Part shown: positions 23,759 through 27,897 of the stretch, in pieces
How positions within the stretch are numbered: the first letter of the stretch is position 1
How the letters are laid out: the number at the start of each line of letters is the position of its first letter
Assembly (NCBI RefSeq): GCF_006494535.1
Contig: NZ_VHIQ01000001.1
Location: 124,001-188,000, forward strand
Direction of reading: 5' to 3'
From: Paucihalobacter ruber
GTDB lineage: Bacteria > Bacteroidota > Bacteroidia > Flavobacteriales > Flavobacteriaceae
DNA length: 64,000 nucleotides
Program-made: the position numbers and the translations under genes
Notes under the pieces: model-generated
What the model was told of the DNA's origin: nothing
Database searches by the model: none
What the model saw: the letters and a program-made list of their open reading frames with translations, nothing else

Positions 23759-24319
23759 TTATTTGATTTGCTTATCAATCCATTTTTTAGGATTCAAATC
23801 AATGTACCGTGATATATTGTAGTATGCCTTTGAATTTCTTATAATGCTATCATGAAATGATCGTTGCCAAACAAAATTTTCAAAGCCGCTGCCGTGAATT
23901 AATTTTGAAGAGGTAGTTTTTAAAGCCCCAATTAAACTTGATAAAGATTTGATTTTTAATTCTTCATCTTTCACTCGCGAACGATCAATTTCGATAATCA
24001 AATGAACATGATCCGGCATCACCACATAATTATGAATCTCGATATATGGATATTGATTGGCCAGCCATTTTATCTGCGATTCTACAATGAATCCGAATTG
24101 ATTTAATTTCAATCCGGGCGATTGATATACGGGCGACTCGCGAGTCGCCCTATCTGTCTCCCCATCAATCGCACCATCCTGAACGGGCAAGTCGCGACTT
24201 GCCCCATTCTGAGCTGCCCAAAAGCAGCAAATTCTATCCTTCACGCAAATTGTGACGAAATAGAGACCATTCTTTGAATAATCATAGCCTATCATTCTAT
24301 TTCGCTTTCTATTTTTCAT
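23759..24319 (-). CDS. REP-associated tyrosine transposase (RAYT)
   Basis: An IS200/IS605-like single-copy transposase of 186 residues (Y1_Tnp fold). The N-terminal GYDYSKNGLYFVTICVKDR, the HUH motif in MPDHVHLI (His104, His106) and the tyrosine region SKAYYNISRYIDLNPKKW (Tyr166/167 candidates) are intact, so it may be active. Between FWAAQN and LKLNQFG it carries an insert of about 32 residues. Within this insert residues 39-46 (GASRDLPV) and 57-64 (RATRESPV) are encoded by two REP palindromes. The insert is in frame. Two more REPs lie between this gene and icmF. RAYTs act on REP hairpins carrying a 5' GTAG/GGAG, which these have. It shares no operon with its neighbours. Confidence 0.92.
   Translation of the reverse strand: MKNRKRNRMIGYDYSKNGLYFVTICVKDRICCFWAAQNGASRDLPVQDGAIDGETDRATRESPVYQSPGLKLNQFGFIVESQIKWLANQYPYIEIHNYVVMPDHVHLIIEIDRSRVKDEELKIKSLSSLIGALKTTSSKLIHGSGFENFVWQRSFHDSIIRNSKAYYNISRYIDLNPKKWIDKQIK
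24131..24150. repeat. REP palindrome A inside the RAYT gene
   Basis: GGGCGACTCG/CGAGTCGCCC is a perfect 20-bp palindrome, inserted in frame in the RAYT coding sequence. It encodes the RATRESP part of residues 57-63. It shares the core GCGACTCGCGAGTCGC with the REPs at 24371 and, with a changed centre, 24409. Confidence 0.88.
24185..24204. repeat. REP-like palindrome B inside the RAYT gene
   Basis: GGGCAAGTCG/CGACTTGCCC is a perfect 20-bp palindrome that differs from palindrome A by a symmetric change (GACTCG to AAGTCG), so the hairpin is conserved. It encodes residues 39-45 of the transposase. The compensated differences suggest selection on, or copying of, the fold. Confidence 0.82.
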
Positions 24320-24370
24320 TATTGATTGATTATCAATTATAAAAATAAAAAAATAATCGAAATATTGAAA

Positions 24371-24398
24371 GGTGCGACTCGCGAGTCGCCCCTCCTAC
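24371..24398 (-). repeat. REP element, minus orientation, with GTAGGAG head
   Basis: The core GCGACTCGCGAGTCGC is palindromic. On the minus strand it is preceded by GTAGGAG, which includes both tetranucleotides (GTAG, GGAG) known as the RAYT recognition signal at the 5' foot of REPs. It lies between the RAYT start and the icmF stop. Confidence 0.82.
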
Positions 24399-24406
24399 CC
24401 CACCAT

Positions 24407-24438
24407 ATGTAGGGGCGACTCTCGAGTCGCCTCTACAT
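24407..24438 (+). repeat. REP element, plus orientation, overlapping the icmF stop
   Basis: ATGTAG-G-GGCGACTC / GAGTCGCC-T-CTACAT form a 32-bp near-palindrome with a TC centre. GTAG at 24409-24412 is the 5' head tetranucleotide. Together with the element at 24371 it forms an inverted pair (BIME-like). The outer arm CTACAT on the minus strand reads ATGTAG, whose TAG (24435-24433) is the stop codon of icmF. Confidence 0.85.
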
Positions 24439-27400
24439 ATTTCTTCTATACTGCCCACCTACCTCAAACAAGGCATGGGTGATTTGGCCCAAAGAACAAT
24501 ACTTGCAAACTTCCATCAATGCTTCAAATATATTGTCATTATTGATGGCCTTTTGCTGAAGATTTTTAATCATTTCTTCTGTATGATGCGCCTGATGTAA
24601 ATTTTGAAGGGTTTTTATTTGGTATTGTTTTTCTTCTTCCGTGGCACGAATGACCTCCTTAGGCTGAATGGTTGGTGAACCTTTACTGCTCAAAAAGGTG
24701 TTGACACCAATTATTGGAAATTCGCCGTTGTGCTTTAAGGTTTCGTAATAGAGACTCTCTTCCTGAATTTTTGAACGCTGATACATTGTTTCCATAGCAC
24801 CCAAAACGCCACCACGTTCGGTAATACGGTCAAACTCCAACAATACAGCTTCTTCTACCAAATCGGTTAACTCTTCAATAATAAAAGCGCCTTGTATGGG
24901 ATTTTCGTTTTTGGTAAGTCCCAGTTCTTTATTAATGATCAATTGAATGGCCATGGCACGGCGCACACTTTCTTCGGTGGGTGTGGTAATGGCTTCATCA
25001 TAAGCATTGGTATGCAATGAGTTACAGTTATCGTAAATAGCATACAGGGCTTGTAATGTAGTACGTATATCGTTAAAATCAATTTCCTGGGCATGTAAAC
25101 TTCTCCCCGATGTTTGTATGTGATACTTCAACATCTGCGCACGTTCGTTGGCACTGTATTTATTTTTAAGGGCTTTTGCCCAGATACGCCTGGCCACCCG
25201 ACCAATTACGGCGTATTCGGGATCTATTCCGTTACTGAAAAAGAAGGATAAATTAGGCCCGAACTGATTGATGTCCATACCTCGCGACAAATAGTACTCT
25301 ACGTATGTAAACCCGTTAGACAAAGTTAAAGCCAACTGTGTAATTGGATTGGCACCGGCTTCGGCAATGTGATATCCCGATATGGACACCGAATAAAAAT
25401 TGCGAACTTGATTTTGAATAAAATACTCTTGAACGTCACCCATTAAGCGCAAGGCAAACTCCGTTGAGAAAATACAGGTGTTTTGCGCCTGATCTTCTTT
25501 TAAAATATCGGCTTGCACAGTACCGCGAACCTGAGCGATGGTTTTTGCTTTAATTTGGTTGTAAACCTCAGCCGGTAATACCTGATCTCCGGTAACGCCT
25601 AAAAGCATTAAACCCAAACCATTATTACCTTCGGGTAAATCGCCATTGTATCGCGGTCTTTCAACACCTTTATCTTTGTAAATGGCGTTAATTTTGGCTT
25701 CTACCTCTTTTTCAAGCTGATGTTCTTTGATATAAAGTTCGCATTGCTGGTCTATGGCGGCGTTCATAAAATAACCTAATAGCATTGGCGCCGGACCATT
25801 GATAGTCATACTTACCGATGTCATGGCATCTGCTAAGTTAAAACCGGAATAAAGTTTTTTAGCATCGTCTAAGCAACAAATACTTACACCGGCATTACCA
25901 ATTTTGCCGTAAATATCGGGGCGGTAATCGGGATCGTTGCCGTAAAGCGTTACACTGTCAAAAGCAGTAGACAATCGTTTGGCTGGTAAACCGGCACTTA
26001 CATAGTGAAACCTGCGGTTGGTACGTTCGGGTCCGCCTTCACCCGCAAACATTCTGGTGGGATCTTCACCGGTGCGCTTAAAGGGATACAAGCCTGCTGT
26101 AAACGGAAATTCTCCGGGTACATTTTCCTGCAAAACCCATCGCAAAATATCGCCCCAGGCACTGTATTTTGGTAAAGCTACTTTGGGGATTTGTAAATGC
26201 GATAACGATTTGGTATGGGTTTCAATTTTTATTTCTTTATTTCGAACCTTAAAACTGTAAATAGGCTCTTTGTAGCGATTAACTTTGTGGTTCCAGTTGG
26301 TTATGACTTCCCAGTTATACGGATCTAAATCCATTTTAACCTTATCAAATTCTTTAAGTAATAAGTCTAAAAAATGTTGATCGGTCTCATTTTTAGCTTG
26401 CTTTAAAACCAATTCATGGTTCACGCCCAATTTTTCCAGAAGCGATGCTTCGGTATCTGCATCATTAATTTGTGCTACTGTGACTATCGTTTTAAAAATA
26501 CCGTATAATTTTTGGGCTACTGCTTCCTGTTCATTGGCGGTTTTGTCGTAAGCGCGGTTGTTTTCTGCAATTTCAGATAAATAACGCGTTCTGGCCGGTG
26601 GAATAACATAGCGCTTTTCGCTCATTTCCTTCGAAATTGTAAAGGTAGATGTTAAATCTGCCTTGGTTTTCTCAACCAGCAAGTCCATGACGGCTTTATA
26701 AAGCGTGTTCATTCCGGGATCGTTAAACTGCGAAGCAATGGTGCCATAAACCGGCATGGTATCCGGGTCTTCGTGCCATAGGTTGTGGTTACGCATGTAT
26801 TGTTTTTTCACATCTCTAATAGCATCTAAAGCACCGCGTTTGTCAAATTTGTTGATGGCTACTATATCGGCAAAGTCGAGCATGTCTATTTTTTCAAGTT
26901 GCGTGGCCGCACCAAATTCGGGAGTCATGACGTAGAGAGACACATCGCTATGCTCCAGTATTTCGGTATCGCTTTGTCCGATACCTGAGGTTTCAAGAAT
27001 AATTAAATCGTAATTGGCAAACTTAAGCACATCAATGGCTTCTTTCACATATTTTGAAAGCGCCAGATTAGATTGTCTGGTGGCCAGACTCCTCATGTAA
27101 ACACGCGAATTGTTAATGGCATTCATTCTAATACGGTCGCCTAACAAAGCGCCGCCAGTTTTTCTTTTAGATGGATCGACCGATACAATACCAATGGTCT
27201 TTTCGGGAAAATCGATTAAAAATCGTCTAACCAGCTCATCTACCAACGAGGATTTTCCTGCGCCACCGGTACCGGTAATTCCCAACACCGGACTTGAAGA
27301 AACGGAATTTTCTGATGGAGCATTTACCGCCGTAAACAATTGATCAAACTCATCATGTTTATTCTCGGCAAAAGAAATCAACCTGGCAATGGTGGTGACA

Positions 27401-27897
27401 TCTTTATCTTTTAAAGAGTTTTTGAGTTCCTTTCCCTTCGGAAGTTGTAAGGCCGGACTTTCGTAATCAGACTTTTCAACCAAATCGTTGATCATACCTT
27501 GCAAGCCCATTTCACGTCCGTCGTCTGGCGAATAAATGCGCGTGATGCCGTAATCCATTAACTCCTTAATTTCAGAAGGCAAAATAACACCACCGCCACC
27601 TCCGAAGATTTTAATATGTCCGGCACCGCGTTCCTGCAGCAAATCGTGCATATATTTAAAATACTCGTTGTGACCACCTTGGTAAGATGTCATGGCAATG
27701 GCATTGGCATCTTCTTGTATGGCCGTGTTAACAACCTCATCGACACTGCGGTCATGACCCAAGTGAATGACCTCAACGCCCGTTGACTGTATGATACGAC
27801 GCATAATGTTGATAGCGGCATCATGACCGTCAAACAAAGACGCTGCAGTTACAATTCTGATATTGTGTTTTGGTTTATACGGTGCAATTGGTTCCAT
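24433..27897 (-). CDS. icmF: IcmF-type fused acyl-CoA mutase with MeaB-like GTPase
   Basis: A 1154-residue fusion: N-terminal cobalamin-binding domain (about 12-145, DGHD with His25, GGGG), a MeaI/MeaB G-domain (about 205-415; P-loop GTGGAGKS 209-216, NKFD 349-352), a linker, and the radical mutase TIM barrel with C-terminal part (about 575-1154). Gln805 in DQAQNTC replaces the Arg of methylmalonyl-CoA mutases, as in isobutyryl-CoA mutases, but Tyr604 occupies the position where well-known IcmFs have Phe. A segment of roughly 55 residues (about 735-790) looks extra relative to Cupriavidus-type IcmF. It would isomerise branched or linear acyl-CoA with coenzyme B12. Its stop codon is supplied by a REP. 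Confidence 0.9.

Follow-up and report, generated by a model that had tools for sequence, protein, structure and literature searches.

The TnpAREPs of subclass 2.4, which are abundant in Bacteroidetes, were reported in 2018 to carry REPs inside their own genes without disturbance of the reading frame, and that report describes the insertions as generally lying between the HUH motif and the Tyr, together with double-foot REPs and the protein motifs NH[IFV]H, WQ and YIxNNP (PMC6006769). The same paper states that in-gene REPs are unique to subclass 2.4 and assigns the E. coli enzyme to subclass 2.2 (PMC6006769). Intragenic GTAG REPs were described in many genes in 2013, along with overlaps of REPs and TAG stops (PMC3733652), and the GTAG foot is essential for the E. 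coli TnpAREP but less strictly required in other TnpAREPs (PMC8266576). Rickettsia palindromic elements (RPE), summarised in PMC3733652, likewise sit as small palindromes in frame in functional proteins, but differ in sequence from the elements reported here.

This work concerns a RAYT gene that carries REP palindromes in its own coding sequence, located in a stretch of 64,000 nucleotides from Paucihalobacter ruber (the window). The locus has the following features:

23759..24319, minus strand: RAYT / TnpAREP (REP-associated tyrosine transposase, Y1_Tnp family), 186 aa, intact
24002..24010, minus strand: HUH motif His104-Val-His106, invariant in 30 homologues
23804..23806, minus strand: candidate catalytic Tyr172 (YIDLNP), invariant in 30 homologues
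24119..24208, minus strand: in-frame insert, residues 38-67, a loop predicted to be disordered and flanked by two short beta strands
24185..24204, minus strand: in-gene REP 1, variant A, core G-TCGCGA-C, encoding GASRDLP(V), GGGCAAGTCGCGACTTGCCC
24131..24150, minus strand: in-gene REP 2, variant B, core C-TCGCGA-G, encoding RATRESP(V), GGGCGACTCGCGAGTCGCCC
24370..24393, minus strand: upstream REP 3, variant B, one mismatch
24405..24440, minus strand: upstream REP 4, double-foot form GTAG...CTAC with ATAT arms

The window protein is a member of the TnpAREP fold and sequence family. It contains the Y1 transposase domain (PF01797, E 7e-7 in Pfam) with a Y1 HUH core and a single Tyr, and its sole sequence match in the PDB, the E. 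coli TnpAREP-REP hairpin complex (4er8), is also the top fold match of its AlphaFold2 model, although the identity is ~22% over the structural alignment; the match to NF047646 reaches 62.8 bits (E 3e-17), under the curated cut-off of 80. The original prediction of an intact transposase frame with HUH and tyrosine regions was borne out by the complete ORF and by the invariance of H104, H106 and Y172, and so was the in-frame insert, whose residues are the only ones with pLDDT <50 in the model and are missing from insert-less homologues.

The resemblance to the published description of subclass 2.4 extends to the Bacteroidota hosts, the in-frame REPs in tnpAREP, a double-foot GTAG...CTAC REP beside the gene, the WQ motif, the lack of a C-terminal extension and the placement of REPs in a variable peripheral loop (PMC6006769). 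The window protein has the motifs DHVH, WQ and YIDLNP, and its relatives range over NHVH, NHIH or NHFH and YIxNNP. In contrast to the insertions between HUH and Tyr, the two window REPs lie N-terminal to the HUH motif, where the chain passes from the first beta strand to helix A, and relatives use both sites; the HUH-Tyr position is not strictly exclusive, because that description says 'generally' (PMC6006769). Since in-frame REPs in tnpAREP genes were published in 2018 (PMC6006769), the window RAYT is regarded as a further case of a known kind, with its REPs on the N-terminal side of HUH. The paired stem changes, a codon phase rule across REP families and an empty site in AlaRS were not found described in the open-access literature consulted.

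A search of ~1,100 genomes plus follow-up loci yielded 33 distinct RAYTs, 31 of which were placed in a tree, and a plasmid search returned distant RAYTs only (26-35% identity). In 23 of the 31 tree rows, a REP-derived peptide occupies the loop before the HUH motif, a distribution that takes at least four changes along the tree. A loop that follows the motif is a second site, holding a REP in 7/31 (L011, L022-L025, L037 and L138) and also in the partial L014. The alignment also contains insert-less RAYTs (L029-L032, L037, L038 and L097), so the insert loop is dispensable. Short in-frame tandem repeats directly follow the REP peptide in L098 (1327-1496) and in the inserts of L010, L022, L026, L028 and L138, for example PDENN repeats (15 bp x 11.3), SNENH and NSDAI; because such repeats often follow the REP peptide, the loop appears as a general site of length change. 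In a more distant relative (L035, 1441-2145, reverse strand), the peptide VGADLRVCP occurs five times in one protein, apparently representing five in-frame copies of another REP-like unit.

Within the window gene, REP 1 and REP 2 are each a perfect 10+10 palindrome of 20 bp lying in frame, as was originally proposed. That proposal had counted two palindromes, and while both were confirmed, it missed the two upstream copies, one of which has a GTAG head and a CTAC tail; REP 4 thus places a palindrome with a GT[AG]G foot, characteristic of TnpAREP genes, next to the gene. The 18-bp core occurs three times in the window at ≤3 mismatches, compared with 0.00 expected from dinucleotide-preserving shuffles, which rules out a chance origin of the motif. 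Neither in-gene copy adjoins an intact GTAG head, in agreement with the earlier reading; their feet are AATG and GATA, and this degeneration may prevent cleavage. As a separate observation, the GTAG foot of REP 4 (window 24433-24440) provides the TAG with which the neighbouring ORF (24433-27897, 1154 residues) ends, and the sibling species G001 is without REP 4 and its neighbouring ORF stops at TAA.

The window palindromes are REPs of the RAYT's own family. In a scan of 28 genomes, the family motif GGNCRRSTCGCGASYYGNCC was present in 14/14 genomes of the host family with an intact RAYT of this kind versus 0/6 without one, and it was not found in G295, whose RAYT carries two stops. In Flavobacterium, a close RAYT accompanies 11/36 motif-positive versus 0/36 motif-negative genomes (p 4e-4); the remaining 25 of the 36 motif-positive genomes have the motif but no close RAYT, so orphan REPs are also common. 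At ≤1 mismatch, a threshold that leaves out REP 4 with its two mismatches, the motif occurs at four places in the 3.54-Mb genome of the window, three of them at the RAYT locus and a lone remote copy at C13:462372. Therefore, these REPs form a locus-confined set, unlike classical dispersed REP families with many scattered copies. The absence of REPs elsewhere in the genome, which would have refuted the original prediction, is thus partly seen: this genome has a single copy off the locus, although relatives have dispersed ones. The other Y1 genes of the genome (L004, L006 and L007) fall outside this family and lie near unrelated palindromes; around that of L004 (1768-2670), a long open frame runs through many CGTCGGACTGAAGTCTGACG-like palindromes and encodes RLKSDVIRCVEPTAL again and again, which might represent another array of REP type.

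The same REP family also lies in frame in unrelated genes, namely AlaRS and MetH of genome G039, the GatB-AspRS linker, RlaP, a cyclomaltodextrinase, a type ISP RM protein and a Kdo transferase. The AlaRS copy was missing in 20 of the 20 relatives searched, and the empty-site comparison gives a gain of ~23 codons, an insertion into an essential gene that is otherwise REP-less. The linker of the GatB-AspRS fusion has gathered one or two in-frame REPs in several Flavobacterium (L072, L076, L109, L113 and L139). These occurrences resemble the intragenic GTAG REPs in lying in frame in housekeeping and tRNA-synthetase genes, and REP 4 resembles them in that its foot supplies the TAG stop of a neighbour, but the earlier elements were mainly in other genes and other phyla and not in the RAYT itself (PMC3733652).

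All RAYT copies and 7 of the 8 other genes use the codon phase GTA-GGG-..., that is, 9/10 sites when the two RAYT sites are included (p 0.011 with two open phases, 0.0004 with three), and RAYTs with quite different REP stems (L035, L036, L042 and L043) use the same reading phase. A PurL copy (L068) in another phase is the one real in-gene exception; copies that seemed to lie within an ORF in phase 0 or 2 were left out as likely intergenic, each of them near a predicted start (L030, L101 and L143) or part of a frameshifted fusion (L033). We infer that the phase is explained by exclusion of the TAG stop of the foot and avoidance of an Arg/Lys-rich reading.

The palindrome is kept at the DNA level. 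In a set of 30 in-gene REPs, complementary bases occupy 279 of 300 pair positions, compared with a mean of 103.5 and a maximum of 132 in 2000 synonymous recodings; the palindromicity is therefore not a by-product of the peptide. Changes on both sides were found in five of eight stem pairs, with a covariation score of 0.403 versus 0.173 in shuffles, 0/500 of which attained it, although related sequences inflate such scores. The sibling species G001 has a RAYT locus syntenic with the window and a gene core 79% identical, and its REP 2 differs from that of the window only at positions 5, 7, 14 and 16, namely two complete and compensatory base-pair exchanges that alter the protein from ATRESP in the window to ASRDLP in G001. 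Homologues encoding the same residues by non-palindromic DNA, which would have spoken against the original prediction, did not emerge, as the palindromes stay and the residues change. Furthermore, in-gene REPs are closer to the flanking REPs of their own locus than to those of other loci (mean distance 2.51 versus 3.78, p 2e-4), a comparison weakened as a test of concerted change by the few events and by the kinship that it ignores.

Based on these findings, we propose, as the probable explanation, that the palindromes are REPs of the cognate family, mobile and gathered at the RAYT, which survive in frame where a loop tolerates them and whose hairpins continue to be renewed or selected. First, the REPs would move over evolutionary time, with the RAYT as the most likely agent and single-stranded hairpins as the transferred form, and would build up within the RAYT gene and next to it; REP movement by TnpAREP has been demonstrated experimentally for other TnpAREPs only. 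To survive in a coding sequence, a copy would need a tolerant loop, a length divisible by three and the phase GTA-GGG-..., which would avoid the TAG of the GTAG foot and encode a mild V-G-T/A-x-R-D/E-x-S/P peptide. In the RAYT, the landing site would be the disordered loop of a beta-hairpin that precedes the HUH motif, a site probably occupied early in the family. Finally, the in-gene palindromes would still be renewed or selected as DNA or RNA hairpins, since the stem changes are paired and follow the REP variants that lie next to the gene in question. The RAYT may bind the in-gene copies and catalyse the movement of REPs, and the palindromes are presumably kept either by renewal, through local conversion or re-insertion, or by selection for the hairpin. 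Three observations sit less easily with cognate mobile REPs: the in-gene window copies are without an intact GTAG foot, many motif-positive Flavobacterium genomes are without a close RAYT, and the PurL copy reads in another phase.

Among the alternatives, selected autoregulation survives best, though we consider it unlikely. Here the RAYT would bind its own gene as single-stranded DNA, or its mRNA, through the in-gene hairpins and so limit its expression, and selection would keep the palindromes. The paired changes and the retention of palindromes at one position over deep divergence are consistent with it, as are hairpins predicted to be strong relative to shuffles, with a DNA z of -3.8 for the insert and an RNA z of -8.9 for the 5' leader, and the window's genome has almost no other copies from which in-gene REPs could be renewed. 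However, several intact RAYTs have no in-gene REP at all (L020, L029-L032, L038 and L097), the flanking copies would be enough to form a leader hairpin, and the equivalent in-frame REPs in unrelated housekeeping genes argue for tolerance rather than need. It seems doubtful, though possible, that the in-gene REPs are functional cis elements of a self-limiting transposase that binds its own coding strand or mRNA, with compensatory changes that would record how protein and target evolved together inside a single gene.

Far less probable is that the palindromes are inert remnants, namely old insertions that decay neutrally and are kept only as harmless, a reading that the original prediction had entertained. 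The degenerate feet of the window copies, the decayed REPs of some homologues (L025 with 6/10 and L019 with 7/10 pairs) and a half-REP (GASRAG) in the sibling G001 would all suit it, but most in-gene copies are perfect or near perfect despite divergence to ~50-60% protein identity, and compensatory covariation of the stem pairs fits poorly with neutral decay. That the peptide came first, with GASRDLPV-like residues serving a protein function and the palindrome as a side effect of codon choice, is hardly credible, given that the recurring phase and similar peptide that would favour it are outweighed by a segment predicted to be disordered, by residues that differ where the palindrome stays, and by synonymous recodings, which reject it in reaching ~3.5/10 pairs and not the 9-10 of real in-gene REPs.

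A coding sequence that has to remain an open frame and a palindrome at once preserves a clear natural trace of selection or renewal that works on DNA against the protein. The matched changes that separate the window from its sibling, together with the AlaRS insertion that 20 relatives are without, open the mobility of a RAYT's REPs and the tolerance shown by host genes to direct tests in harmless Flavobacteria.

In relatives, the RAYT also has a recurrent neighbour. At ~20 of the 27 RAYT loci of the family examined, the window not among them, the RAYT and the cas2 gene of a CRISPR-Cas locus are arranged tail to tail (L010, L011, L013, L014, L020, L128, L175-L182, L184-L189, L192 and L194), and no mention of this arrangement was found in the open-access literature. 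These loci have Cas1 and Cas2 and, where the contig reaches, an array with a 66-bp period; the RAYT sits between cas1-cas2 and the array, with its REPs on the side of the array; in related CRISPR loci without a RAYT, there is no REP and the array starts in several cases ~108 bp after cas2. The Cas1 of the RAYT-linked clade was not found in the window's genome or in the sibling G001. Among 299 genomes of the family, a RAYT is present in 5 of 15 with this Cas1 clade, one of these RAYTs being broken and 14 kb away, versus 3 of the 284 others (p 8e-6), and the association may stem either from a single ancestral insertion that has travelled with the locus or from a functional connection.
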